Shown: positions 3,940 to 19,412 of the stretch, piece by piece | How the letters are laid out: the number at the start of each line of letters is the position of its first letter | Position numbering within the stretch: position 1 is the first letter of the stretch | Assembly (NCBI RefSeq): GCF_007625205.1 | Contig: NZ_VMNI01000010.1 | Span: 62,001 to 126,000, forward strand | From: Denitromonas ohlonensis | Lineage (GTDB): Bacteria; Pseudomonadota; Gammaproteobacteria; Burkholderiales; Rhodocyclaceae | Reading direction: 5' to 3' | Length of the DNA stretch: 64,000 bases | Position numbers and translations under genes: made by a program | Notes under the pieces: model-generated | The model's input: the letters and a program-made list of their open reading frames with translations, nothing else | The model's database searches: none | What the model was told of the DNA's origin: nothing

Positions 3940-4016
3940 CGGGGAATAGCTCAGCCTGGTAGAGCACTGCGTTCGGGACGCAGGGGCCGGAGGTTCGAAT
4001 CCTCTTTCCCCGACCA
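3940..4016 (+). tRNA. tRNA-Pro (anticodon CGG)
   Basis: 77 nt with encoded CCA. The acceptor stem CGGGGAA pairs with TTCCCCG (4006-4012), followed by A-CCA. The anticodon stem is CTGCG/CGCAG around the loop TTCGGGA, so the anticodon is CGG, reading CCG. The T arm contains GGTTCGAATCC. The 3' part, from the anticodon loop onward, is duplicated at 19325-19374 and is the integration site of the island. The intact gene is at this (integrase) end. Confidence 0.97.
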
Positions 4017-4020
4017 AAAA
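3971..4020 (+). repeat. attL: 50-bp direct repeat, tRNA-Pro 3' part
   Basis: It is identical over 50 bases to 19325-19374. The identity starts at the anticodon stem/loop (GTTCGGGACG) and ends in the A-run after CCA. The bases before the two copies differ (ACTGC here, AACGG at the other copy). Tyrosine recombinases of islands typically use such tRNA 3' ends as attachment sites. Confidence 0.95.
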
Positions 4021-4082
4021 ACCCAAGCAAATCAATAACTTGGTTTGCAGGTTGCGGGAAGTTGGCTCAAAAGAAACACTGT

Positions 4083-4102
4083 TTGAGCCAGTCTTGCGCC
4101 AA
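4083..4102 (+). repeat. Island left-end copy of a 20-bp subterminal repeat (possible integrase arm site)
   Basis: TTGAGCCAGTCTTGCGCCAA, 18/20 identical and in the same orientation as 19200-19219 near attR. Its first half also forms a perfect 9-bp inverted repeat with 4063-4071 (TGGCTCAAA facing TTTGAGCCA). Pairs of sites inside both ends are typical for integrase arm or excisionase binding. The role is inferred. Confidence 0.6.
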
Positions 4103-4110
4103 CCCGAGAA

Positions 4111-4143
4111 AAAGCCCACCGTTTATCGGCGGGCTTTTTTTTG
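4111..4143 (+). terminator. Rho-independent terminator downstream of tRNA-Pro, island-supplied
   Basis: Arms 4111-4121 and 4127-4137 pair (AAAGCCCACCG with CGGCGGGCTTT, one mismatch) around the loop TTTAT, followed by a T run to about 4142. It lies inside the island, so the tRNA transcript now ends in island DNA. It also insulates the integrase gene. Confidence 0.85.
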
Positions 4144-4157
4144 TTCACTGCCTCTTT

Positions 4158-4168
4158 GTAGCTATACG
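4158..4168 (+). promoter_or_regulatory. Shared island motif GTAGCTATACG upstream of integrase
   Basis: It lies 34 nt before the integrase GTG. The same 10-mer GTAGCTATAC lies 29-30 nt before two other island genes (6544 and, on the minus strand, 7839-7830). TATAC could be part of a -10 box; here TTGTTC at 4141 is a possible -35 with a 16-nt spacer. Alternatively it is an operator. Confidence 0.5.
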
Positions 4169-4202
4169 GCACTCCATTTTTTTAGAAAAAAAGGAGTTCG
4201 CT

Positions 4203-5561
4203 GTGGCTGTCAAAAAGAACACTAGTAACATCATCAACCGCTCGCCATGGTTCGTCAGCGTGCGCGGGCGTCCGGAGCTTGGCCGGCAGTTCTCGTACCC
4301 GAAAAAAGCAGAAGCAGACGCGTACCAGAACATGTTGCACGACAAGGGCCTGATCGCGAGTGTGCGACAGCTTGAGACATCGTTCCAGTTGCGCATCAGG
4401 AGAAAAGGCGTGCGCGTGCAGCGCATCACCTTCGATACTTATGCAGCAGCAGAGCAAGCGCTTCGCAAGATCGAAAGCGACTTGTCTGTCAGCATTGTTC
4501 GCGACTATGCCATCGCTGCTCAAACTAGTTTCCGGGATATCGCTGACCGCTACATTGCTGAAGTTGCGCCAAAGCACAAAGGCGGGGAGATCGAAATCGG
4601 TCGCTTGAAGAAGATCTTGCGCGACCAGTCGTTTGTCGATAAGCCGCTAGCTGCTCTCCGGACCGAAGACCTTCAGGACTTTATCGGCGAACGGTTGGCT
4701 GATGTCCGACCCGCGACAGTCGATCGCGATATCGATGTCATTTCCCAAACGCTTCGCTACGCGAGCGACGTTTGGAAAATCGGGCCTGCCGAAAGTCCTT
4801 TGCTTGGGTTGAAGCGCCCGAAGTACTTCAATGAGCGCGATCGTCGGCTTGGCAGTGGGGACGAGAGGAGGTTGCTGGAAGCGGCGCGTGCGGACGAAAA
4901 CGAATACATCGAGCCGGTGATCATCTTGGCGATTGAGACGGCGATGCGTCGCAGCGAAATCTTGTCGTTCTCTGCGCGTGACGTCGACTTCGATCGCCGT
5001 TTTATCTTGTTACGCGAAACCAAGAATGGCCAGTCGAGGAAAGTGCCGCTTACGAGGCGCGCAATGTCCGTGCTACGTGGACTGCCTGACCGGGGCGATG
5101 CGCCGCTGCTCAAACTCACGGCGAACGCCGTCAAGAAAGCCTTTTTTCAGCGCGTGTTGCCCGCCGCGGGGATCGCAGATCTTCATTTTCACGACCTGCG
5201 CCACGAGGCGATATCGCGTTTTGCAGAAACCGGTAAGTTCGAGTTGATTGACCTGCTGGCCATTTCTGGTCATCGCGATCCGCGCATGCTGCAACGCTAT
5301 GCGCACCTGTGTTCGAAGAAGCTTGCGCAGAAAATGGATGGGGTAGAACGCGAAGACGAGATCGAAGAAGCTTACATCCATCGTGGGCGAAAACGGACCC
5401 TCCGGCGTAAGTGCGATGCGACGTTCCAAGTGGCAAACGGTCAGGCGGTCGAAGTCGAAATGTCGTCTGAAAACGTCGACGCGGACCCCGTGGTCTTCAG
5501 TGCAAGCGTGATCGATTTTGCTGCAATCCGCGCACGTCGTGTTGGCGGGAGGTCCGAATAA
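4203..5561 (+). CDS. Tyrosine-type site-specific recombinase (integrase)
   Basis: 452 aa. I chose the GTG at 4203 because AAGGAG (4191-4196) lies 6 nt upstream. A longer frame upstream runs through the terminator. The N-terminal arm-binding and core-binding regions are followed by a catalytic domain with all key residues: R249 (TAMRRSEIL), H330-D-L-R333, H357 (ISGHRDP) and nucleophile Y366 (QRYAHL). About 85 residues beyond the tyrosine form a hydrophilic tail, longer than usual. It integrates or excises the island at tRNA-Pro and overlaps the next gene by one base (TAATG). Confidence 0.93.
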   Translation: MAVKKNTSNIINRSPWFVSVRGRPELGRQFSYPKKAEADAYQNMLHDKGLIASVRQLETSFQLRIRRKGVRVQRITFDTYAAAEQALRKIESDLSVSIVRDYAIAAQTSFRDIADRYIAEVAPKHKGGEIEIGRLKKILRDQSFVDKPLAALRTEDLQDFIGERLADVRPATVDRDIDVISQTLRYASDVWKIGPAESPLLGLKRPKYFNERDRRLGSGDERRLLEAARADENEYIEPVIILAIETAMRRSEILSFSARDVDFDRRFILLRETKNGQSRKVPLTRRAMSVLRGLPDRGDAPLLKLTANAVKKAFFQRVLPAAGIADLHFHDLRHEAISRFAETGKFELIDLLAISGHRDPRMLQRYAHLCSKKLAQKMDGVEREDEIEEAYIHRGRKRTLRRKCDATFQVANGQAVEVEMSSENVDADPVVFSASVIDFAAIRARRVGGRSE

Positions 5562-6055: not shown

Positions 6056-6583
6056 TCCGGGCAAGAGAAAATCGGGGCTGCACTGGCAGCCTCGATTGCT
6101 TTTCTACGTCCAAAATATCACTCGTTCCAGGCGCCCGCAGGGCTGCGTAGCAAAGCCGATAGGCGTCTTGCGGAGCGGCCGGCAGCCCCCCAGGGAGGCC
6201 GGCGCCCTTTGGGGGGAGCCGTTTTGCGTACGACGCGCCGTCCAGGCGTGTCGAGCCGCCCCAGCGGCGTTAGCAAAAAGGGGGGCGAGTTAGCCCCCGC
6301 AGGCCGGACGCGCGCAGGGCGGGGGGCCCCATGCTCAGTCGGTCCGCAGGGCCGGCGCGTCCTGAGCGTGGGGCCCCCCGGCCGGCGGCAACGACGGGTG
6401 GGCGGCCTGCGCAATACGGAAGCGGGGCCCAAGCCCCGCAGCGACTGGCCGTGCGTTCAGCGCGGGAAAAGGAGCGGTTCCGGACCCCGTTCCCAGAGGC
6501 AATTCCAGAAAAAAGAACGGGCGAGGGGACTTGCCACGGAACAGTAGCTATACGTGTTTTCCAACTCCAAAAGGAGAACACGC
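6056..6583. other. Non-coding, GC-rich block of consecutive hairpins
   Basis: 528 bp without a convincing gene. At least four perfect or near-perfect stems lie in a row: 6255-6268 (GCCGC/GCGGC), 6281-6298 (GGGGGC/GCCCCC), 6320-6380 (19-bp arms with one mismatch around a 23-nt loop) and 6422-6439 (GCGGGGC/GCCCCGC). A looser stem lies at 6184-6217. The block sits directly before the replication-relaxation-like gene, so an origin, transfer site or structured RNA is possible. None is demonstrated. Confidence 0.6.
6544..6554 (+). promoter_or_regulatory. Shared island motif GTAGCTATACG upstream of replication-relaxation gene
   Basis: An identical 11-mer to 4158-4168, 29 nt before the ATG at 6584. 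No good -35 is seen at the standard distance, which favours an operator or activator-dependent promoter. Confidence 0.5.
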
Positions 6584-7554: not shown

Positions 7555-7800
7555 TCAAGAAGGAAACGCGGCGCGCGGGCGTCCGCGCCGTTTCTTGCTC
7601 GAATCAATGGCCGCCGCTTGCCCCGGTGTTACGCCGAATTGGGCATCGATCCATGCCGCGACATCCGCGCCGCGCCAGTACAGGCGCCGGCCGATCTGCG
7701 TGTGCATCGGTAGTTCGCTCTTTGAGATCATCGTGTCAATCGTTCGCTTCGACACTTGCAGCAATTCTATGAGGTCTTCTTTCGTCATCAGCGTTTTCAT
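7555..7800 (-). CDS. AlpA-family / helix-turn-helix DNA-binding protein
   Basis: 81 aa from the ATG at 7800. An in-frame TTG at 7812 is an alternative, and neither has a clear ribosome site. MTKEDLIELLQVSKRTIDTMISKSELPMHTQIGRRLYWRGADVAAWIDAQFG is the MerR-like winged helix of AlpA and excisionase proteins. A basic tail (KKRRGRPRA) follows. Such proteins activate integrase genes or direct excision of P4-like islands. It is convergent with the replication-relaxation gene. Confidence 0.8.
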   Translation of the reverse strand: MKTLMTKEDLIELLQVSKRTIDTMISKSELPMHTQIGRRLYWRGADVAAWIDAQFGVTPGQAAAIDSSKKRRGRPRAAFPS

Positions 7801-7829
7801 CGCCCGTGCCAATTTGGTTGAGGGGCGAT

Positions 7830-8521: not shown

Positions 8522-8706
8522 CTTATTGGGCGCCAGAATGGCACGTCCTTGGCCGGAGCGGCCTGATGATGCTGGCTTTGATATAGTCCGCAATCGGTAT
8601 AAAACCGTCCTTCAGATTTCCCTTCCCATTTGTATGATGGCAGGATGTCTCAAGTTTTCAATTCGTACCAATAAGTAGTTCGTAAACACGAAAGGTCATA
8701 ACGCTG

Positions 8707-10269
8707 ATGGCTAGCAACAATGGTAGAGAAAAATCCCTCGAATCATGGATATGGGACGCTGCCTGCTCCATCCGTGGTGCCAAGGACGCACCGAAATACA
8801 AGGACTACATCCTCCCTCTCATCTTCACCAAGCGCCTCTGCGACGTCTTCGACGATGAGCTGAACCGCATCGCCGTCGAAGTCGGCTCGCGCAAGAAGGC
8901 CTTCCAGCTTGCCAAGGCCGACCACAAGCTCGTTCGCTTCTACCTGCCCCTCGTGCCGGATGATCCCGAGCAACCGGTCTGGTCCGTCATCCGCAAGCTG
9001 GCAGACAAAATCGGCGAAGGCGTCACCACCCACATGCGTGCCATCGCCCGCGAAAATCCGCTGCTGCAGGGCATTATCGACCGCGTTGACTTCAACGCCA
9101 CCACCCACGGCCAACGCGATCTCGACGACGACCGCCTGTCCAACCTCATCGAGGCCATCAGCACCAAGCGCCTCGGGCTCGAAGACGTCGAAGCCGACAT
9201 CATCGGCAAGAGCTACGAATACCTCATCCGCAAGTTCGCCGAAGGCGGCGGCCAGAGCGCCGGCGAGTTCTACACCCCGCCCGAGGTCGGCACCATCATG
9301 TCCCGCGTGCTCCAGCCCGAGCCCGGCATGGAAATCTACGACCCCACCTGCGGCTCTGGCGGTCTGCTCGTGAAATGCGAGATCGCCATGGAAGAAAACG
9401 CCAAGGGAAAAAAGCGTACCGTCGCCCCGCTGAAACTGTTCGGCCAGGAGTTCACCCCCGAGACCTGGGCCATGGCCAACATGAACATGATCATCCACGA
9501 CATGGAAGGCCAGATCGAGATCGGCGACACCTTCAAGAACCCCAAATTCCGGAGTAAAGGCAAGCTCCGCAGCTTCGACCGCGTCGTCGCCAATCCCATG
9601 TGGAACCAGGACTGGTTCGCCGAGGCCGACTACGACAACGACGAACTCGACCGCTTCCCCGCCGGGGCCGGCTTCCCCGGCAAATCCTCCGCGGATTGGG
9701 GGTGGGTGCAGCATATCCACGCCAGCCTGAACGCCACCGGCCGCGCCGCCGTCGTCCTCGACACCGGCGCTGCTTCGCGCGGCTCGGGCAATGCCGGCAC
9801 CAACAAGGAAAAGACCGTCCGCCAATGGTTCGTTGATCACGACCTGATCGAGAGCGTGCTCTACCTGCCCGAAAACCTCTTCTACAACACCACCGCTCCG
9901 GGCATCGTGTTGTTCCTCAACAAGGCCAAGACCAAGGTGCGTCAGGGCAAGGTCTTGCTCGTCAATGCATCCCAGGTCTTCGAAAAAGGCGACCCCAAGA
10001 ACTTCATCCCCGAAGCCGGCATCCAGCGCATCGCCGACACCCTCATCGGGTGGACCGAAGCGGAAAAACTCAGCCGCATCGTCGACCACGCCGAACTGAA
10101 GAAAAACGACTACAACATCTCCCCCAGCCGCTACATCCACACCTCGGATGCCGAAACCTACCGGCCCATCGCGGAGATCGTCGAGGAGCTGGCCGTAATC
10201 GAGGCTGAGGCGCGGGAGACGGACGAGGCATTGCGGAGCATCCTGAAACAACTGGGCGTGTCGGCATGA
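8707..10269 (+). CDS. hsdM: Type I restriction-modification system, DNA adenine methyltransferase subunit
   Basis: 520 aa. The N-terminal HsdM_N-type helical domain (LESWIWDAACSIRGAKDAPKYKDYILPLIFTKRLCD) is followed by the N6-adenine methylase domain. The SAM-binding motif is DPTCGSGG at 212-219. The catalytic motif is NPMW at 296-299, where NPPY/F is more usual; some HsdM clades have this variant. EFYTPPEVGTIMSRVL precedes the methylase core. It methylates adenine in the target chosen by HsdS and forms M2S, or R2M2S with HsdR. Its stop overlaps the rhuM start (ATGA). Confidence 0.95.
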   Translation: MASNNGREKSLESWIWDAACSIRGAKDAPKYKDYILPLIFTKRLCDVFDDELNRIAVEVGSRKKAFQLAKADHKLVRFYLPLVPDDPEQPVWSVIRKLADKIGEGVTTHMRAIARENPLLQGIIDRVDFNATTHGQRDLDDDRLSNLIEAISTKRLGLEDVEADIIGKSYEYLIRKFAEGGGQSAGEFYTPPEVGTIMSRVLQPEPGMEIYDPTCGSGGLLVKCEIAMEENAKGKKRTVAPLKLFGQEFTPETWAMANMNMIIHDMEGQIEIGDTFKNPKFRSKGKLRSFDRVVANPMWNQDWFAEADYDNDELDRFPAGAGFPGKSSADWGWVQHIHASLNATGRAAVVLDTGAASRGSGNAGTNKEKTVRQWFVDHDLIESVLYLPENLFYNTTAPGIVLFLNKAKTKVRQGKVLLVNASQVFEKGDPKNFIPEAGIQRIADTLIGWTEAEKLSRIVDHAELKKNDYNISPSRYIHTSDAETYRPIAEIVEELAVIEAEARETDEALRSILKQLGVSA

Positions 10270-11333
10270 AAAAGAAACCGGACAACAAGGAAACTTCCCT
10301 GACGCGTTCCTCCGCCGTCGAATACCTCACCTTCGTCGCGGTACAGGGTCAAGGTGGCGTCGAGGTGGTTTATGCCGACGAGGACATCTGGCTGACGCAA
10401 AAAATGATGGGCGTCCTCTACGACGTGAAGACCCCCACCATCAACTACCACCTCAAAACCATCTTCGCCGACAACGAACTCACAGAGGATTCAGTTATTC
10501 GAAAATTTCGAATAACTGCCGCCGATGGCAAAAACTACGACACCGGCCACTACAACCTCTCCGCCATCATCGCCGTCGGCTACAAGGTCAACTCCGAGCG
10601 GGCCGTTCAATTCCGCAAATGGGCGACCACCGTGGTCAAGGAGTTCACCGTCAAGGGCTTCGCCATGGACGACGAACGCCTCAAGGCTGGCGGCACCGTC
10701 CTGACCAGGAAGTACTTCGAAGAACAACTCCAGCGCGTCCGCGAAATCCGCCTCAGCGAGCGCAAGTTCTACCAGAAGATCACCGACATCTACGCCACCG
10801 CCATCGACTACGATCTCAGCGCCACGGCCACCCAGCGCTTCTTCGCCACCGTGCAAAACAAGCTCCATTGGGCCATCCACGGCCACACCGCCGCCGAGGT
10901 CATTGTGGACCGGGCCGATGCCGGGAAACAGCACATGGGCCTGACCACATGGAAAGATGCGCCCCATGGAAAAATCCAGAAATTCGATGTCAGCGTCGCC
11001 AAGAACTATCTGACCGAACCGGAGATGGCGCAACTCTCCCGCCTCGTCAACGCCTACCTCGATGTCGCCGAAGACATGGCCCAGCGGCAGATCCCCATGA
11101 CCATGCAGGACTGGGAAACACGGCTCAACCGCTTCATCGAAGCCACCGACCGGGAAATCCTGCAGGACGCCGGCAAAGTCACCGCCGAAATCGCCAAAGC
11201 CCACGCCGAAACCGAGTTTGAGAAATACCGCATCGTCCAGGATCGCCTGTTTGTCTCGGATTTCGACGCCGAAGTCATGCGGATCGCAAGGAATGATGAG
11301 GAAAGCGGGAACGAGGAAGGCGGTGCGGAGTGA
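10266..11333 (+). CDS. rhuM: RhuM-family protein in type I RM operon
   Basis: 355 aa, start overlapping the hsdM stop. It has the RhuM layout: EVVYADEDIWLTQKMMGVLYDVKTPTINYHLKTIFADNEL, a DNA-binding-like N-terminus as in Bro-N/KilA-N relatives, then GHYNLSAIIAVGYKVNSERAVQFRKWAT, then a helical C-terminal region ending in coiled, charged sequence. The family is named after a Salmonella pathogenicity-island gene, and its biochemical function is unknown. Members often sit between hsdM and hsdS, as here, which suggests a linked accessory role. Confidence 0.85.
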   Translation: MKKKPDNKETSLTRSSAVEYLTFVAVQGQGGVEVVYADEDIWLTQKMMGVLYDVKTPTINYHLKTIFADNELTEDSVIRKFRITAADGKNYDTGHYNLSAIIAVGYKVNSERAVQFRKWATTVVKEFTVKGFAMDDERLKAGGTVLTRKYFEEQLQRVREIRLSERKFYQKITDIYATAIDYDLSATATQRFFATVQNKLHWAIHGHTAAEVIVDRADAGKQHMGLTTWKDAPHGKIQKFDVSVAKNYLTEPEMAQLSRLVNAYLDVAEDMAQRQIPMTMQDWETRLNRFIEATDREILQDAGKVTAEIAKAHAETEFEKYRIVQDRLFVSDFDAEVMRIARNDEESGNEEGGAE

Positions 11334-11407
11334 GCGCCAAACGGAGCGGGGACATCGCGTCCGCTGTAGCCCCGGCGAAGGAGATTCTGGAGAAGATCGG
11401 GGTATGA
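11330..11407 (+). CDS. 25-codon linker ORF coupled to rhuM and hsdS
   Basis: GTG at 11330 overlaps the rhuM TGA (11331-11333), and its own TGA at 11405-11407 overlaps the hsdS ATG at 11404. The product would be MSAKRSGDIASAV followed by APAKEILEKIGV. GAAGGAGATTCTGG inside it supplies the hsdS ribosome site. The double overlap suggests a real coupling ORF, but it is very short and the peptide may have no role of its own. Confidence 0.4.
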   Translation: MSAKRSGDIASAVAPAKEILEKIGV

Positions 11408-12621
11408 GTGACCACGCGCAAAATGGCTGGATAAAAACTAGCATTCGAGAGCTTGAACACGCCGGCGACATAGTGCTCGGGCGCGGAAAGGTCATCTCGC
11501 AAAAGGACATTGAGGCCGATCCCGGCGACTACCCGGTTTACTCCTCGTCAGCCAGAGGCAACGGTGAGTTCGGTCGCTACGGCAAGTACATGTTCGACGA
11601 GGAACTCGTGACGTGGTCCGTGGACGGCGGGGGCAAATTTTTCTACCGACCGAAGAGCCGATACTCGATAACGAACGTCAGTGGTTTTCTCCGCGTCACC
11701 GCGAAGGAGAAGCTCGATACCTACTACACGTGGGCGCACCTATTCAGCATCTGGCTGACAATGACCTTTAATTACACGGAGAAGCTCCACCCGAGCATTC
11801 TTCGTGAAAGGTTTTCTTTCGCCTACCCTCCACTCCCCGAGCAGAAGAAGATCGCGCACATCCTTTCGACGGTGCAGCGGGCAATCGAAGCGCAAGAGCG
11901 GATCATTCAGACCACCACCGAGCTGAAAAAAGCCCTCATGCACAAGCTCTTCACCGAAGGCCTCCGCAACGAACCCCAAAAACAAACCGAAATCGGCCTC
12001 GTCCCCGAAAGCTGGGGGGTGTGCAAAGTTGGTGAAGTGGCGAAGATCCAGAGCGGCGGAACCCCCACACGTGAGGCCGCAGAAAACTGGATTGGCGGAA
12101 CAATCCCGTGGGTGAAGACCGGTGAGATCAACTACTGCGTGATCCACAACACGGAAGAGAAAATCACACCAACTGGCCTTGCCAATTCTGCCGCACGACT
12201 TTTCCCAAAAGGAACCTTGCTAATGGCGATGTATGGCCAAGGAATCACTCGCGGGCGGGTAGGCTTGCTGGGGATTGAAGCCGCAACAAACCAAGCCTGT
12301 GCGTCGATCACGCCGACCGACAAGAAGCGGATTTCTTCAGTCTTCCTGTATTACTTCTTTGAGTATCACTACGAAGACCTGCGAAAGCTCGGTCATGGAG
12401 CGAACCAGCGGAACATGAATGCCGCTTTGATTCGAAGCTTCCCCCTCGCATTCCCGAAGCAGGACGAACAGACTGCTGTCGTGACCGCATTCGAGTCACT
12501 TGATCAGAAACGCGCCCTACACGAGCGTAAGAAGACTCAACTCCAAGACCTCTTCCGCACGCTCCTTCACGAACTGATGACCGCGAAGACCCGCGTTCAT
12601 GATTTCGAATTTACAGCGTAA
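11404..12621 (+). CDS. hsdS: Type I restriction-modification system, specificity subunit
   Basis: 405 aa. I chose the ATG at 11404 (GGAG about 10 nt upstream, overlap with the linker ORF). It has two target recognition domains. TRD1 covers about residues 1-140 and ends in YPPLPEQKKIAHILS. A conserved helical spacer follows (TVQRAIEAQERIIQTTTELKKALMHKLFTEGL). TRD2 begins TEIGLVPESWGVCKVGEVAKIQSGGTPT and ends with a second helical region (LDQKRALHERKKTQLQDLFRTLLHELM). It picks the bipartite DNA target. The 5' half has lower GC than hsdM, as is common for exchanged hsdS genes. Confidence 0.93.
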   Translation: MSDHAQNGWIKTSIRELEHAGDIVLGRGKVISQKDIEADPGDYPVYSSSARGNGEFGRYGKYMFDEELVTWSVDGGGKFFYRPKSRYSITNVSGFLRVTAKEKLDTYYTWAHLFSIWLTMTFNYTEKLHPSILRERFSFAYPPLPEQKKIAHILSTVQRAIEAQERIIQTTTELKKALMHKLFTEGLRNEPQKQTEIGLVPESWGVCKVGEVAKIQSGGTPTREAAENWIGGTIPWVKTGEINYCVIHNTEEKITPTGLANSAARLFPKGTLLMAMYGQGITRGRVGLLGIEAATNQACASITPTDKKRISSVFLYYFFEYHYEDLRKLGHGANQRNMNAALIRSFPLAFPKQDEQTAVVTAFESLDQKRALHERKKTQLQDLFRTLLHELMTAKTRVHDFEFTA

Positions 12622-12642
12622 TCGAGAGGAGCAACGAACCAC

Positions 12643-13821
12643 ATGGATCCGATCGCAAAAGACAATCTAGCCCAACTCGACAACCTGCTTGCTGCAAGCA
12701 ACCAGTCATGGCTATTTGGAGCGGGCATCAGTCTCGATGCTGGAATTCCGCTGATGTGGCCTCTCACGGACCGCGTCTTTGCGAGAGCCAAAGACGAAGG
12801 TGAAGCGAACGACCTCAAGGTTCTGGAATTCATCAGAAGTCAGCTTTTCGATGACTCGCATATCGAGCACATATTGAGTCACCTCGGCGATCACCGCGCG
12901 ATTGCCGACCGTTCAAAGGACAAGAACGTTACATTCGATGGAGTGACTCTGTCAGTTGATGAATTAGATGCACTTCACCAGCGCGTACTCACATGGATAG
13001 CTGAAACTATCCGGTGGGGATACAAGCCTGAGAAAGCTGACGGAACGCCAGAAGTAGTTGGAACCCACGAAGCGCGAATCGTCATAATCGACAACCACTC
13101 TGCATTTGTATCCGCGCTCTTCAATCGAAGCCAGGCTGGCGTAGCAGAGCGCCGACGGGCAGTCAGACTGTTCACGACCAACTACGACACTTTGCTAGAA
13201 GATGCACTCGCACTTGGAGGGTTCTCTTACTGGGACGGATTCTCTGGCGGAGCAGTCGCGTATCGTAGTCACCGGTATGGGGACGAAGAACCCAATCTCC
13301 GGGATAGGGCGCACGTTATCAAACTTCACGGATCGATTGATTGGCACATGGGTGAAGACGACCGCGTTTGGCGCGTTCGAGATGGTGATCTCTATCCAAA
13401 GAAAGTTTCTCGCGTTCTGATATACCCACAATCAACCAAATACCTCGCAACCCAACGAGACCCATTCGCCGCCCAATTTGATCTATTTCGTCGGGCGCTT
13501 GGCGCACGAGAGGAAAACGTTCTCGCGACATGCGGATACAGTTTTGGAGATGAACACATCAATCAAGAGATTGAATTAGCCCTCCAGCGCCCTGAGAACA
13601 AAACGACGATTCTCGCCTTTGCTCGAGGGATTAACCCCACGCTCGAACGATGGAGAACAGGAGCGTGGGGTAAACGAGTGTACGTCATCGCCGAAGATGG
13701 CCTTTATGTAGGCACTGATGGCCCATTTGCAGGTCCCGTCGCAGGTGGGAAACGCGACTGGTGGACGTTTGAGGGCGCAACCAAAATTCTCAATAGTGGT
13801 GCGGAGGCATGCGCGCTATGA
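12643..13821 (+). CDS. SIR2-family NADase of SIR2-HerA (Nezha-type) anti-phage system
   Basis: 392 aa, with a GAGAGGAG ribosome site upstream of the ATG. SIR2 motifs: GAGIS at 26-30 (NAD-binding loop), FTTNYD at 177-182 (catalytic N180 and D182) and KLHGS at 227-231 (catalytic H229), with GYSFGDEHIN later. The next gene is HerA and overlaps by ATGA. In known SIR2-HerA systems the SIR2 protein depletes NAD+ when HerA-bound complexes sense phage. GC is about 50% in a sampled line, unlike hsdM and hsdR at about 67%, suggesting a separate origin. Confidence 0.88.
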   Translation: MDPIAKDNLAQLDNLLAASNQSWLFGAGISLDAGIPLMWPLTDRVFARAKDEGEANDLKVLEFIRSQLFDDSHIEHILSHLGDHRAIADRSKDKNVTFDGVTLSVDELDALHQRVLTWIAETIRWGYKPEKADGTPEVVGTHEARIVIIDNHSAFVSALFNRSQAGVAERRRAVRLFTTNYDTLLEDALALGGFSYWDGFSGGAVAYRSHRYGDEEPNLRDRAHVIKLHGSIDWHMGEDDRVWRVRDGDLYPKKVSRVLIYPQSTKYLATQRDPFAAQFDLFRRALGAREENVLATCGYSFGDEHINQEIELALQRPENKTTILAFARGINPTLERWRTGAWGKRVYVIAEDGLYVGTDGPFAGPVAGGKRDWWTFEGATKILNSGAEACAL

Positions 13822-15668
13822 ATACCTTCGACTTAATTCCTGATTTGAGGATTGGGCACATTGTTGAAGTGTCAGGCACGGCGATTCGAGTGGAGCTGTC
13901 CGGTGATGTCACCGAACTCACCCGAACATATGAAGGACGTGTCTACCCCATAGGGCAAATTGGAAGCATCGTAAAAGTCCACTTCGGAAGACGCCTCGTG
14001 TTTGGTTTTGTAACCCTCTTGCGCATGCGCTCAGAGGAGCTACACGAGATCACGAAGCCCATTCCCCCTGATGCAGATCAAAGGTTGATGGAAGTCGAAC
14101 TGTTCGCGGAAGGGATATGGAACGCTGCTGATCAAAAGCTGAGGTTTGTGCGTGGTGTCACCACATATCCTCTGCCGCGACAGAGCGTGCACCTTCTCAC
14201 TCGTGAAGAGACCAGCCAGATATACTCGGCGGCGGAAGGTCAACAGAATGACGGCACCTATAGCCCACTTGTCCCCTTCGCTCACTACGTTGGCGCGGAC
14301 AACGCGATTTGTCGTGCAAACGTGGACAAAATGCTGGGTATGCATTGTGCCGTCCTCGGGTCCACGGGCTCGGGCAAATCTGGTGCCGTTGCGGCCCTGC
14401 TGCACAGCATGCTTGATCACAAGCCAGAGCCGGATTCCGTCTGTCATCCGCGAATCCTCGTCATCGACCCGCACGGAGAATATGGGCACGCGTTCAAAGA
14501 GCGTGCGATCGTATATCGCGCCTATGATCCGCTTGGCAACGAGGAAACTGCCGGATCGCCAATTAGCCTTCCGTACTGGCTAATGTCAGCGGATGAGTTT
14601 CGATCTTTGGTCATTGGTAAGACGGAGCAAGAGGCAACTTCGCAGAACAACATCATCTATAAGGCAATCACCTATGCGCGAATGGTCGCGGCTGGCTTAA
14701 TAGAGCCGTCGCCGACAGCATATGGCGGACCAGCCCCAACAGATGGACTGGATCACGATACGCCACGACCAAAGGACGGAGTAACCCTTGAGCAGTTGAT
14801 TGAGTTTGATCACGACAAGCCACGGCCTTTTAGTCTTCAAGAGTTTTACAACCACATTTTCTACTTGCAGGCTGCGCGCGTACAAGGCGGAGTACTACAG
14901 AGCGTTACGGCGTCTGATTTCGCCACAAAATTCAAATCGATGCTGGACAAACTCTCAGTACTAAGGCGTGATCCGAGAATCCGTTTCATGATGCGCGAAT
15001 GGAACAATCAAAGTCCTCCACTTGAGCACATCATTGCCCAGCTGGTCGGAAAACTCCAAGGGGAGGGCGGCGCCGATCAAGATATTCGCATTTTGGATAT
15101 CTCGGGACTTCCGAACGAAGTTGCCGGGCCTCTTGCAGCGATGTTGGCTCGCTTGGTGTTCCAATACAAGGTCTATCAAACGACAGAAGAGCGGAGGCGT
15201 GACCCTGTTGTTCTCGTTTGTGAAGAGGCTCACCGATATGTCCCCGATAGAGGGGATGCAGAGTATGCAGTCGCACAAAATGCCATTCGCAGAATTGCAC
15301 GAGAAGGCAGAAAATACGGGATAGGCCTCATGCTTGTAAGTCAGCGGCCCGCAGATGTGGAGAGCACAGTGATTTCTCAGTGTGGCACCTGGCTTGTCCT
15401 GCGACTCACCAACGCGGCAGATCAACAACACGTTTCTCGATTCTTGCCAGACGGACTTTCAGGCATGACAAAAGCGCTACCAAACCTTGCCCAGCAGGAA
15501 GCTATTTTCGTTGGCGAAGGGGCTGCTATGCCTGCTCGAGTTCGAATAAGAGATCTTTCGGAAGATAAACTTCCTAAATCGGAGACCGCGAAGTTTGCGA
15601 GGGGATGGATACTTGACCGACTCTCTGAAGCGGAGATTGCTGCAATAGCGAACAGAATGGCCGGCTAA
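13818..15668 (+). CDS. HerA-type hexameric ATPase/translocase of the SIR2-HerA system
   Basis: 616 aa. The ATG at 13818 overlaps the SIR2 stop and has GGAGG 10 nt upstream. The ATG at 13809 would place that site too close. Residues 1-110 form a HAS-barrel-like beta region (GHIVEVSGTAIRVEL ... YPIGQIGSIVKVHFG). Walker A is GSTGSGKS at 181-188. Walker B is VVLVCEEAHRYV with E469/E470. LVSQRPADVESTVISQCGTWLVLRLTN is the HerA/FtsK sensor region. It assembles as a hexameric ring that carries the SIR2 partner. Confidence 0.9.
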   Translation: MNTFDLIPDLRIGHIVEVSGTAIRVELSGDVTELTRTYEGRVYPIGQIGSIVKVHFGRRLVFGFVTLLRMRSEELHEITKPIPPDADQRLMEVELFAEGIWNAADQKLRFVRGVTTYPLPRQSVHLLTREETSQIYSAAEGQQNDGTYSPLVPFAHYVGADNAICRANVDKMLGMHCAVLGSTGSGKSGAVAALLHSMLDHKPEPDSVCHPRILVIDPHGEYGHAFKERAIVYRAYDPLGNEETAGSPISLPYWLMSADEFRSLVIGKTEQEATSQNNIIYKAITYARMVAAGLIEPSPTAYGGPAPTDGLDHDTPRPKDGVTLEQLIEFDHDKPRPFSLQEFYNHIFYLQAARVQGGVLQSVTASDFATKFKSMLDKLSVLRRDPRIRFMMREWNNQSPPLEHIIAQLVGKLQGEGGADQDIRILDISGLPNEVAGPLAAMLARLVFQYKVYQTTEERRRDPVVLVCEEAHRYVPDRGDAEYAVAQNAIRRIAREGRKYGIGLMLVSQRPADVESTVISQCGTWLVLRLTNAADQQHVSRFLPDGLSGMTKALPNLAQQEAIFVGEGAAMPARVRIRDLSEDKLPKSETAKFARGWILDRLSEAEIAAIANRMAG

Positions 15669-15672
15669 ATCC

Positions 15673-18594
15673 ATGCCCACACCCGGAGAACACAAAACCG
15701 TTCAGTCCCGAATCCTCGGCTATGCTGAAGCCATCGGCTGGACGTTTGTGTCCCGCGAGGAAGCCGAGCAGCGGCGCGGTTTTGATCCGGAAGTGCCACC
15801 TGCCGACCGCGCCAGGAACCGTTCGCTGTTCTTCGACGATCTGCTCGACGCCAAGCTGCGGGAATTTAACCCGCGCTACGCCGAGGCCGAGGGTGCCTTG
15901 CTCGGAGCTTTCCGCCATCTCCACACCGACATCTACGGCAACCGGGAATTCGTCGAGCACCTGCGCAACCGGGGCAAGTTCTTCGATCACGAGGACAAGC
16001 GCGAACGCGACCTGATGCTGATCGATTACGACGATCCGGCACGCAATGTTTATGAAGTGACCGAGGAGTGGGCCTTTCATAACGGCCACTACGGCACGCG
16101 GGAGGATGTGGTCTTTCTGATCAACGGCATCCCGGTGCTGGTGATCGAGTGCAAGAACGCCAACAAGGACGAGGCGATTGCGCTGGGGGTGGACCAGATT
16201 CGTCGTTATCACCGCGAGACGCCGGAGCTGTTTGTGTCGCAGCAGTTGTTCACCGCCACCGACGCCATCGGCTTTTCCTACGGCGTCACCTGGAACACGG
16301 TGCGGCGAAACATCTTCAACTGGAAGGATGAGGAAGTCGGCAAGCTGGAGGCCAAGGTGAAGAGCTTCTGCGCCATCGGGCAGGTGCTCGCCTTTCTGAA
16401 GGACTACATCGTCTTTGCCGAGAAGGACGAGGAACTCAACAAATACATCCTGCGCCAGCACCAGACCGGCGCGGTGGACGCGACTGTCGGCCGTGCCCTC
16501 GAACCTAATCGCACGCGCGGCCTGGTCTGGCACACCCAGGGCAGCGGCAAGACCTTTACCATGATCAAGACGGCGGAGCGGCTGTTCCGCGCGCCTGAGG
16601 CGGACAAGCCGACCGTGTTGCTGATGATCGACCGCAACGAGCTGGAAGATCAGATGCTGAAGAACCTCGCCGCGCTTGGCCTGGGCAATCTGGAACACGC
16701 CAGCAGCATCGCCCGGCTGAACCAGCTGCTGCGCGACGACTACCGGGGCATCATTGTGACGATGATCCACAAGTTCCGTGACATGCCGGCGGACTTGAAC
16801 ATGCGCGCGAACATCTACGTCCTGATCGATGAAGCCCACCGCACCACTGGCGGCGACCTCGGCAACTTCCTCATGGCCGGCCTGCCGAATGCGAGCTTCC
16901 TCGGGTTCACCGGCACGCCGGTGGACAAGACGGTGTATGGCAAGGGCACCTTCAAGACCTTCGGCTGCGAGGATGACCAGGGCTACCTGCACAAGTATTC
17001 CATCGCCGACAGCATCGAGGACGGCACCACGCTGCCGCTGTACTACCAGCTCGCCCCCAACGAAATGCTGGTGCCGCATGAGACGCTGGACAAGGAGTTC
17101 CTGTCGCTGGTCGAAGCCGAGGGTGTGGCCGACATCGAGGAGCTGAACAAGATTCTCGAACGGGCGGTGAACCTGAAGAACTTCCTCAAGGGCAAGGAGC
17201 GGATTCAGCAGGTGGCGCAGTTCGTCGCCAAGCACTACCGCGAGAACGTTGAGCCGCTTGGTTACAAGGCTTTCCTCGTCGGGGTCGACCGCGAAGCCTG
17301 CGCGCATTACAAGCATGCGCTCGACCAGTTTCTGCCGCCGGAGTATTCCGAAGTGGTTTACACCGGCAGCAACAACGACGCCAAGCTGCTGAAGGAGTTC
17401 CACCTCGACCCGAAGAAGGAGCGGCAGATCCGCAAGAGCTTCGGCAAGCTCGACCAGATGCCGAAGATCCTCATCGTTACCGAGAAGCTCCTCACGGGCT
17501 TCGATGCGCCGGTGCTCTACGCGATGTATCTCGACAAGCCGATGCGTGACCACACCTTGCTGCAGGCGATTGCCCGGGTGAACCGCCCCTACGAGAACGA
17601 GATGCAGGAGATGGTGAAGCCACACGGCTTCGTGCTGGATTTTGTCGGCATCTTCGACAAGCTGGAAAAGGCGCTGGCCTTCGATAGCGAAGAGATTAAC
17701 GCCATTGTCAAAGATCTCAAGCTGCTCAAGGTGCTGTTCAAGAACAAGATGGAGACCAAGGCCCCGGACACCCTCAGGCTGATCGAGCGCAACTTCAACG
17801 ACAAGGACGTCGACACCCTGATCGAACACTTCCGCGATCCTGAGCGGCGCAAGGAGTTCTTCAAGGAATACAAGGAAATCGAGATGCTCTACGAGATCAT
17901 CTCGCCCGATGCCTTTCTGCGCCCGTTCATCGACGATTATGGAACGCTATCGGCGATCTATCAGGTCGTCCGCAAGGCCTACACCAAGACCGTGATGGTC
18001 GACCGCGAGTTCCAGGCCAAGACCAACCATCTGGTGCAGGAGCAGGTGAGTACTTATGGCGTGGGCGGCCTGGGTGAGATTGTTGCGATTGATGGCAATA
18101 CGATTGAGCTGATCAAGAACAAGCGCGGTGGGGACGGCACCAAAGTCATCAACCTGATCAAGAGCATCGAAAAACTGGCCGAGGAAGGCAGTGATGACCC
18201 GTGCCTCATTGCCATGGCGGAGCGCGCCAGAGCGGTGCAGGAGAGTTTCGAGCAGCGCCAGACCAGCACAGCCGAGGCACTGGCGGCACTGCTTCAGGAA
18301 GTTGAAACGAACGAGATTCGCAAAAAGGAGCAGGCCGAGAAGTCGTTCGATGGCCTGACTTATTTCGTCTATCGCAGCCTGCTCGACGCGAAGATTGAGA
18401 ACGCCGAGGCGGTCAGCCGCAAGATTCGCCAGGCCTTTGCTGATTTCCCGAACTGGAAGCGAAGCGAAAACGCCCTCCGCGAGCTCAGGAAGAAAGTCAC
18501 CTTCGCCATCTTTGCGGAAACTGACGATCTGGATCGGGTGACAGCGATGGTGAACGAGCTGTTCACCCTGCTGGACAAGGCAGACCGGATTTGA
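15673..18594 (+). CDS. hsdR: Type I restriction-modification system, endonuclease/translocase subunit
   Basis: 973 aa, starting 4 nt after herA. The N-terminal PD-(D/E)xK nuclease has DVVFLINGIPVLVIECKN (E159, K161). The superfamily 2 motor follows: TQGSGKT at 288-294, DEAHR at 386-390, GFTGTPV, LLTGFDAP and QAIARVNRPY. A helical C-terminal part, probably for HsdM contact, closes the protein. HsdR pulls DNA past the bound complex and cuts at a distance. GC is back to the hsdM level, so hsdM and hsdR look like one original operon split by the SIR2-herA insertion. Confidence 0.95.
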   Translation: MPTPGEHKTVQSRILGYAEAIGWTFVSREEAEQRRGFDPEVPPADRARNRSLFFDDLLDAKLREFNPRYAEAEGALLGAFRHLHTDIYGNREFVEHLRNRGKFFDHEDKRERDLMLIDYDDPARNVYEVTEEWAFHNGHYGTREDVVFLINGIPVLVIECKNANKDEAIALGVDQIRRYHRETPELFVSQQLFTATDAIGFSYGVTWNTVRRNIFNWKDEEVGKLEAKVKSFCAIGQVLAFLKDYIVFAEKDEELNKYILRQHQTGAVDATVGRALEPNRTRGLVWHTQGSGKTFTMIKTAERLFRAPEADKPTVLLMIDRNELEDQMLKNLAALGLGNLEHASSIARLNQLLRDDYRGIIVTMIHKFRDMPADLNMRANIYVLIDEAHRTTGGDLGNFLMAGLPNASFLGFTGTPVDKTVYGKGTFKTFGCEDDQGYLHKYSIADSIEDGTTLPLYYQLAPNEMLVPHETLDKEFLSLVEAEGVADIEELNKILERAVNLKNFLKGKERIQQVAQFVAKHYRENVEPLGYKAFLVGVDREACAHYKHALDQFLPPEYSEVVYTGSNNDAKLLKEFHLDPKKERQIRKSFGKLDQMPKILIVTEKLLTGFDAPVLYAMYLDKPMRDHTLLQAIARVNRPYENEMQEMVKPHGFVLDFVGIFDKLEKALAFDSEEINAIVKDLKLLKVLFKNKMETKAPDTLRLIERNFNDKDVDTLIEHFRDPERRKEFFKEYKEIEMLYEIISPDAFLRPFIDDYGTLSAIYQVVRKAYTKTVMVDREFQAKTNHLVQEQVSTYGVGGLGEIVAIDGNTIELIKNKRGGDGTKVINLIKSIEKLAEEGSDDPCLIAMAERARAVQESFEQRQTSTAEALAALLQEVETNEIRKKEQAEKSFDGLTYFVYRSLLDAKIENAEAVSRKIRQAFADFPNWKRSENALRELRKKVTFAIFAETDDLDRVTAMVNELFTLLDKADRI

Positions 18595-18598
18595 CGTG

Positions 18599-18934
18599 AT
18601 GACTGCGATCGATCAAAAGCGGGCGTTCAAGCAATGTGTCCGCCGGTGGGCCAATAAGCTGGAGGTGAAAGTTGTTTGGCTGGGCGTCCGTCCCATGCGT
18701 AACAAGTGGGCGTCATGCTCCACCAGCGGCCACCTGAACTTCAATGCCGAACTGCTCGACCTGCAACCCGAGCTGTGGGATTACGTTATCGTCCACGAGC
18801 TGCTTCACTTCTTTGTTCCAAACCATGGAAGGCTTTGGAAAAGCTTGATGCGTGCCCACCTGGGTGACTATGAGGCACACGAAGACGAGTTAAACCGTAT
18901 AGCGCAAAACGCTTCGAAACAGCGGGCGCGCTGA
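18599..18934 (+). CDS. YgjP/DUF45-type M48-like metallopeptidase
   Basis: 111 aa, 4 nt after the hsdR stop (ATG 18599; a GTG at 18596 is also possible). The zinc motif is VIVHELLHFFVPNHGRLWKSLM, the HExxH of the YgjP family with the second His in PNH. MRNKWASCSTSGHLNFN is the typical preceding strand. Such genes often end type I RM operons. The protein is shorter than E. coli YgjP and holds mainly the catalytic core. Substrate is unknown. Confidence 0.85.
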   Translation: MTAIDQKRAFKQCVRRWANKLEVKVVWLGVRPMRNKWASCSTSGHLNFNAELLDLQPELWDYVIVHELLHFFVPNHGRLWKSLMRAHLGDYEAHEDELNRIAQNASKQRAR

Positions 18935-19324
18935 CGCACTCCGTTGGGTTTTTCGTTGAATGACCACGTCGGTGCAAACCGCATCACGGTTGTGGGCCAA
19001 GGACCGGATGGAATCAAACTGACGCTTGATTAGCCGCTCCGGCAGGGGGCCGGTCGCTGGTAGATCTTTGGTAAAAACGTCGTTCTCAATGTGCCTAGCA
19101 GGCGAGTGAACGCCAGGTGATGGCGTCAAATTACGTCACGGTCATAGAACTTTTGGAAAAACGTCGAAACCTGCATGGGATATGCAAATATCGTTTTCCT
19201 TGAGCCAATTTTGCGCCAATTATTCCGGTTGTGGTTGCATTTTGCTGCATGCAGGTGCATGCTAACGCACTGAAATCTATGGATTTCTAATTTTGTGTCG
19301 TAGGCTAAAAGTGGGCCGAAACGG
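18935..19324. other. Island right-end non-coding region with repeats
   Basis: 390 bp with no gene. It holds two near-copies of TTTGG(T)AAAAACGTCG at 19067-19082 and 19152-19166, differing by one inserted T and spaced about 85 bp. It also holds the subterminal repeat at 19200-19219 and a TGCATG-rich stretch (about 19235-19262). AT content rises towards attR. This is probably the recombinase/excisionase assembly region. Confidence 0.6.
19200..19219 (+). repeat. Island right-end copy of the 20-bp subterminal repeat
   Basis: TTGAGCCAATTTTGCGCCAA, matching 4083-4102 at 18 of 20 positions. It is about 105 bp inside attR, while the left copy is about 62 bp inside attL. Confidence 0.6.
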
Positions 19325-19374
19325 GTTCGGGACGCAGGGGCCGGAGGTTCGAATCCTCTTTCCCCGACCAAAAA
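19325..19374 (+). repeat. attR: 50-bp direct repeat, partial tRNA-Pro copy
   Basis: A perfect copy of 3971-4020 without the tRNA 5' half, so it is not a functional tRNA. It is followed at 19383-19412 by a strong terminator, which was probably the tRNA-Pro terminator before insertion. Confidence 0.95.
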
Positions 19375-19382
19375 CCGTTAGC

Positions 19383-19412
19383 AAAAAAGCCACTCGAAAG
19401 AGTGGCTTTTTT
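19383..19412 (+). terminator. Strong terminator downstream of attR (ancestral tRNA-Pro terminator)
   Basis: A perfect 13-bp stem (AAAAAAGCCACTC with GAGTGGCTTTTTT) closed by a GAAA tetraloop, with U-rich ends in both directions. It can therefore also stop glnE transcripts from the other strand. Confidence 0.9.

Follow-up and report, generated by a model that had tools for sequence, protein, structure and literature searches.

A SIR2-HerA pair inside a type I restriction-modification operon

The stretch of DNA that we analysed (the window) comprises 64,000 nucleotides from Denitromonas ohlonensis and contains seven genes that lie head to tail on the forward strand between positions 8707 and 18934, in the order hsdM-rhuM-hsdS-SIR2-herA-hsdR-ygjP, with all seven reading frames open. 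A type I restriction-modification (RM) system is represented by hsdM (8707–10269; Pfam N6_Mtase and HsdM_N), hsdS (11404–12621; Pfam Methylase_S) and hsdR (15673–18594; NCBIfam TIGR00348, 2.2e-141; Pfam HSDR_N and SWI2_SNF2), each of which is open and carries the domains of its family. The rhuM gene (10266–11333; Pfam Virulence_RhuM, 5.8e-110; PADLOC PDC-S05) is located between hsdM and hsdS and overlaps the former by 4 nt; no solved structural relative of RhuM was found. The last gene, ygjP (18596–18934; Pfam YgjP-like, 1.8e-26), encodes a short form of a YgjP-like metallopeptidase and adjoins hsdR, as it does in relatives.

The interval between the hsdS stop and the hsdR start (12622–15672, forward strand) is filled by a two-gene cassette consisting of SIR2 (12643–13821; Pfam SIR2_2; PADLOC SIR2 model PDLC04088, 1.9e-151) and herA (13818–15668; Pfam HerA DUF87; PADLOC HerA model PDLC04105, 2.2e-140). 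The gap between hsdS and SIR2 is 21 nt, SIR2 and herA overlap in an ATGA at 13818, and herA is separated from hsdR by 4 nt. A first-pass annotation of this DNA had described hsdM-rhuM-hsdS and hsdR as being split by these two genes; the reading frames, Pfam and PADLOC bear out that arrangement, the coordinates confirm the spacing that it quoted, and all of the motifs that it named for SIR2 and HerA are present.

The same annotation took the seven genes to form one transcript, for which the tight spacing speaks and a consensus scan for promoters and terminators less so. The sole forward-strand promoter-like site between 8300 and 19400 lies 5' of hsdM (8611–8638), and a terminator-like site on that strand coincides with the end of ygjP (18931–18947). 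Promoter-like sites, however, were at chance level (3, versus a mean of 3.7 in shuffled sequence), terminator-like sites were slightly above it (20, versus 13.4 in shuffles, SD 3.8), and further forward-strand terminator-like matches fell inside SIR2, herA and hsdR. With counts near chance and terminator-like matches within those three genes, the evidence for a single transcript is weak; the spacing suggests that all seven genes are probably co-transcribed from upstream of hsdM.

The operon as cargo of an island at tRNA-Pro

A 15.3-kb island, inserted at a tRNA-Pro(CGG) gene (3940–4016, forward strand; ARAGORN), carries the operon as its cargo. The island is bounded by a 61-nt direct repeat on the forward strand, one copy of which lies within the tRNA gene (attL, 3971–4031) and is 93% identical to the second (attR, 19325–19385). 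A tyrosine integrase gene (4062–5561, forward strand; Phage_integrase, 1e-20), the true start of which is likely somewhat inside that frame, lies beside attL. The att core is found in one copy in nine of nine same-genus genomes searched and in two copies in the window genome. In one same-genus locus (L081) the flanks match at 96–97% and run through a single uninterrupted site, which corresponds to the empty site.

In the available portion of PMC12255303, the RRDM island of EPEC starts with an RptR repressor, and TAGCTA is given as the RptR motif. RptR was sought in the window by this 6-bp site only, and no copy was found within 700 nt upstream of hsdM. All four copies in the window (4159, 6545, 7833 and 7989) lie inside the island, a number that 3 of 100 whole-window shuffles reach; one precedes a small HTH_17 gene (7555–7812, minus strand) by 21 nt.

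Assignment of the SIR2-HerA pair

The adjacency of SIR2-like and HerA genes, their catalytic residues and their relation to solved complexes place the cassette among SIR2-HerA (Nezha/GAO_19) systems. In alignments of 18 rows, N180 and H229 of SIR2 are invariant, as are the Walker lysine K187 and E469/E470 (CEEAH) of HerA; the roles of the SIR2 Asn and His were taken from the accessible part of PMC11559045, which covers SIR2 active-site mutants and the V. cholerae Nezha case, and their positions were matched by motif. Profile searches matched SIR2 to PDB entries 8w9l (7.8e-27) and 8j4u (5.2e-16), and HerA to 8wiv (5.6e-79) and 8j4u_M (3e-39), with matches of the two proteins falling in common entries such as 8wld and 8su9. 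Scores against the named NCBIfam anti-phage equivalogs were far under their cut-offs (NF042942, 63.8 of 500 bits; NF042944, 256.3 of 850; NF042943, 169.8 of 800), and we therefore describe the pair as being of the SIR2-HerA kind, a divergent subfamily that the PADLOC models cover, rather than as a named equivalog. It shares its gene order, families and catalytic residues with SIR2-HerA/Nezha/GAO_19 and differs in its divergence and in its nesting within an RM operon. By analogy with these families, SIR2 presumably hydrolyses NAD+ with HerA as its partner.

Contents of the hsdS-hsdR slot in related operons

Searches with HsdR gave hits in 13 of the 369 genomes examined from the class, in 4 of 200 from the order, in 1 of 17 from a different order and, in a phylum-wide draw, in 1 of 398, each count including the genome on which the search was centred. 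SIR2 was found in 3 of 398 genomes in such a draw, and both phylum-wide counts include the window genome. We fetched 15 further HsdR loci, to which a second hsdR fragment, in genome G603, does not belong. The slot can be seen in 12 of them and not in L049, L053 and L054, nor in L062, from viral contigs (HsdR 84% identical). It is occupied in nine of the 12 and empty in three (L057, L058 and L075).

Three operons (L075, L076 and L077) have the gene order of the window, with HsdR 93–94% and HsdM 92–96% identical, and in each of them identity to the window resumes at the hsdR start. Their slots are in three different states, beside which that of the window is a fourth: in L075 the slot is empty, 2 nt separating the hsdS stop from the ATG of hsdR, in L076 it holds an ABC-3C pair, and in L077 an AbiJ-like gene together with Septu PtuA/PtuB. 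The tail of hsdS is alike in the window, L075, L077 and L048, and partly in L076, and together with the start of hsdR bounds the exchange.

More distant operons extend this range. The slot of L048 (HsdR 86%, HsdM 88%) contains a SIR2-HerA pair that is only 27% and 30% identical to that of the window over the aligned parts, and the slot of L055 a pair of a lineage other than either, with approximately 1 kb without a clear reading frame between HerA and hsdR. Thoeris ThsA with two ThsB genes occupies the slot of L051, a Fic gene that of L050 and a DUF6119 gene plus Fic that of L052 (the intervals of L050, whose hsdS is truncated, and L052 also hold opposite-strand reading frames), while an NYN-domain gene is found in L059 and a DUF3800 gene in L056. 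In another type I family, a further gene stands between SIR2-HerA and hsdR, encoding an AbiP2-type reverse transcriptase in L015 and a GmrSD protein in L017.

Where HsdR is at least 70% identical and both hsdS and the hsdR start are visible, nine of ten operons contain cargo (the ten being the window, L014, L048, L050, L051, L052, L055, L075, L076 and L077, with HsdR of L055 compared over the 442 residues in view). The interval between hsdR and ygjP, by comparison, is without a gene in all nine operons of at least 70% HsdR identity in which it can be seen, the window and L014 included. Since YgjP directly trails hsdR in these nine close relatives, whatever the slot holds, we regard it as part of the RM family and not, as had been proposed, of a composite with SIR2. 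What distinguishes the slot is the presence of same-strand foreign defence genes inside the hsd operon, in near-identical operons of which it is empty or differently filled.

The content of the interval between hsdM and hsdS varies as well, with RhuM, DUF4062 proteins or both encoded there (window, 10266–11333; L051, L055, L075 and L077); rhuM itself is also present in L075 and L077.

Genomic settings of related SIR2-HerA pairs

A scan of genome contigs identified 19 SIR2 loci, in 18 of which herA follows SIR2 (in L013 as its 5' part only; the SIR2 gene of L018 has a stop). A type I neighbourhood accounts for seven of the 18, with an operon or part of one in L012, L013, L014, L015 and L017 and RM scars in L007 and L018. 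The pair lies beside type III RM in three (L009, L011 and L019), type IIG in two (L010 and, divergently, L005) and Wadjet in two (L008 and L021); RM was not recognised in the remaining four (L004, with an upstream view of 378 nt, L006, L016 and L020). The labels of L011, L005 and part of L019 were assigned through BLAST clustering with scanned proteins.

Same-lineage relatives are mostly 61–92% identical to the window pair (52–69% for L020 and L021; 82–92% for L004, L005, L006 and L008), with SIR2 and HerA at 86% and 92% in L004 and at 83% and 90% in L006. HerA proteins 87–92% identical to that of the window are found in four settings (type I scar, type IIG, Wadjet and none of these) and in four phyla, and nucleotide identity between the window and L004 or L006 begins in the first codons of SIR2 and stops at the herA stop. 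These two observations lead us to conclude that SIR2-HerA moves as a unit. No RM-specific part was visible in the aligned same-lineage SIR2 and HerA proteins (18 rows each).

A separate search of 369 genomes of the class for the HerA family gave hits in 18 of them, at 19 places in total, and each place was inspected (the window, L048, L055 and 16 others). SIR2 lies beside 11 of them and, recognised by eye, beside that of L089, which is cut at the contig start, giving 12 pairs; it was not recognised beside the other seven, among which L093 has adjoining type I genes. Four of the 12 pairs are nested in a type I operon: in the window, L048 and L055 the pair sits in the hsdS-hsdR slot, and in L098 (3614–13479) it occupies a different slot, that between hsdM and hsdS of another RM family, where five genes, all confirmed by Pfam, are joined by 4-nt overlaps. 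A fifth of the 12 (L092), from the window genome, comes after a separate hsdR. Seven of the 12 are without RM as recognised by a reference set built in this analysis, which may miss other RM kinds; L087 and L089 reach contig ends. On a HerA tree of 23 rows, which flags long branches, the seven nested rows require seven changes (4–7 with shuffled labels, mean 6.2). With the changes inside the range of the shuffles, the nested labels are scattered without a significant pattern; they occupy three or more distinct regions of the tree.

A phage origin of the cassette was considered and rejected: among 50,697 phage records, 3 matched SIR2, and none of these matches spanned half of the protein. Among viral contigs, four loci had SIR2 and ten HerA, partly the same. 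Spread by plasmids was likewise rejected: SIR2 matched 493 plasmid records, all below 60% identity, and the best match (Rhizobium, 45%) had no RM in its annotated neighbourhood. The single plasmid match to hsdR at a cut-off of 1e-100 was 31% identical, and a blastn search with hsdR matched 29 of 5,426 E. coli genomes, with only short stretches among the 20 matches listed. A conjugative Shewanella plasmid (L024, 3029–11053) carries hsdR-AAA-hsdM-hsdS-SIR2, with no HerA gene listed behind SIR2.

Junction remnants and base composition

Isolated copies of the hsdR start were detected at several cargo borders. L012 contains one (6103–6192; residues 1–30, 80% identical) directly behind HerA and before Fic, L018 one behind HerA (13036–13131; residues 4–35, 53%) and L049 one upstream of HipA and a full hsdR (9925–10008; residues 3–30, 86%). 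A weak match (7686–7630; residues 1–19, E 0.009) is located between DUF6119 and Fic in L052, and L006, in which SIR2-HerA-Fic occurs without RM, showed no scar of this kind. The positions of these remnants are consistent with cassettes having been added at the hsdR start, stacking on one another.

At the other junction, a Chlorobaculum metagenome-assembled genome (L007) retains a decayed hsdS tail upstream of SIR2 (9773–9976; score 37 versus a shuffle maximum of 11; tblastn 1.9e-7), with no other RM gene recognised nearby. Read from its sequence, this tail is a scar of former nesting. A tail in L018, picked out by eye, scored 10, below the shuffle maximum of 12.

The GC content at third codon positions (GC3) is 0.84 for hsdM, 0.78 for rhuM, 0.83 for hsdR, 0.67 for hsdS, 0.68 for ygjP, 0.51 for SIR2 and 0.53 for HerA. 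The low values of the cassette compared with hsdM and hsdR speak for its being cargo. Because hsdS and ygjP fall between the cassette and hsdM/hsdR, composition does not divide the operon cleanly.

Discussion

We consider it likely, from the comparison of loci, that SIR2-HerA is an autonomous and presumably NAD-depleting system carried as exchangeable cargo in the hsdS-hsdR slot of a mobile type I RM operon. A mobile hsdM-rhuM-hsdS-hsdR-ygjP operon, on its integrase island at tRNA-Pro, would provide the slot, and an autonomous pair of the Nezha/GAO_19 type would fill it here. RM would cut unmodified DNA, as its families predict; independently of RM, HerA with SIR2 would sense infection, and the hydrolysis of NAD+ by SIR2 would form a second, abortive layer. 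To judge by junctions and scars, the conserved 3' end of hsdS and the first ~30 codons of hsdR are probably where recombination brings cassettes in and out. We prefer the autonomous second layer because relatives of the pair persist elsewhere and near-identical RM cores do without it.

The nesting itself, head to tail in a type I RM operon as first proposed, is borne out and recurs in other genomes and RM families, and it has published counterparts. The EPEC RRDM island, as described in the accessible text of PMC12255303, is a seven-ORF island with DarTG2 in the same hsdS-hsdR slot, where the window has SIR2-HerA; its name includes an M48 peptidase, and the window operon has a YgjP-like metallopeptidase. 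TgvAB of V. cholerae VPI-2 is likewise a two-gene autonomous defence within a type I operon, of the GmrSD-like type IV restriction kind (PMC11411939, available sections). For S. thermophilus, the portion of PMC11514479 that is available places SIR2/HerA between or downstream of R/M systems, a description from which the exact slot and the exchange of cassettes are absent. That RM may be coupled to a suicidal effector, Sir2 enzymes linked to type I RM among them, was proposed earlier, as was the displacement of toxins (PMC3506569, as far as its accessible text goes). We found no description of slot exchange with SIR2-HerA in the literature searched, which covers few subscription journals.

Alternatively, the RM complex might keep SIR2-HerA latent until phage anti-restriction or unmodified DNA disturbs the complex and so frees it, with the slot dedicated to effectors that are wired to RM. 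The gene for PrrC lies between hsdS and hsdR in the PrrI operon. PrrC, an effector encoded with hsd genes and kept latent by the Hsd complex, is a published precedent in the accessible part of PMC3506569. An RM-specific interaction retains some probability because the slot is position-specific and many of its occupants come from families with an established or suspected abortive action (Thoeris, Fic, AbiJ-like, several SIR2-HerA lineages and, in L015, the AbiP2-type reverse transcriptase), and the type I nesting of four of the 12 surveyed pairs is in keeping with it. Against it stand same-lineage pairs that lie near type III RM, type IIG RM or Wadjet, or have no RM within the visible region, and that show no RM-specific part, the near-identical RM cores that lack SIR2-HerA, and nested TgvAB, whose protection does not depend on HsdR restriction activity according to the accessible part of PMC11411939. 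We therefore regard a guarded effector as unlikely. A broader proposal, to which we give similarly little credence, is that the hsdS-hsdR junction might be a dedicated, recombination-fed cargo bay, joined via the first ~30 codons of hsdR, into which unrelated effectors were repeatedly plugged since the restriction complex, or its phage-induced failure, would be their common trigger; SIR2-HerA would then have entered several times independently.

Defence genes generally cluster, and the position of the cassette might be unselected and its operon-like spacing incidental. The seven of 12 pairs without RM by our reference set would fit such clustering, as would the HerA tree, on which nested labels group together no more than shuffled labels do. 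The gap between hsdS and SIR2, however, is at most 21 nt or an overlap in seven loci (the window, L012, L013, L014, L015, L017 and L048), different cassettes occur at one junction yet nothing occurs between hsdR and ygjP, and the L098 pair is joined by 4-nt overlaps within its own operon, which together make ordinary clustering quite improbable. Least credible by far is the fixed new composite of RM, RhuM, SIR2-HerA and YgjP envisaged in the first-pass annotation: the order hsdS-SIR2-HerA-hsdR-YgjP does recur in a Verrucomicrobia locus (L014; HsdR 74%, hsdM side off the contig), but L075, L076, L077, L048 and L050–L052 keep the RM core with other cargo or none, close relatives of the pair are found where no type I RM is visible, and none of L048, L050, L051, L052, L055 and L076 gave a tblastn match to the window RhuM at E up to 1e-4, so that a fixed co-operon is contradicted.

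Under the favoured reading of SIR2-HerA as exchangeable cargo, the window and its closest operons form a natural, near-isogenic RM set (HsdR 93–94%) that differs by the nested cassette, one member being empty. Cassette swaps could therefore test directly if nested suicide systems are functionally tied to RM or are passengers, and the hsdR-start scars hint at how cassettes get added.

The window genome contains a second, different SIR2-HerA pair approximately 37 kb past the window end (L092, contig C25, 2490–10222). A different type I hsdR ends 88 nt before that pair, whose HerA gene is split by an opposite-strand DDE transposase gene.
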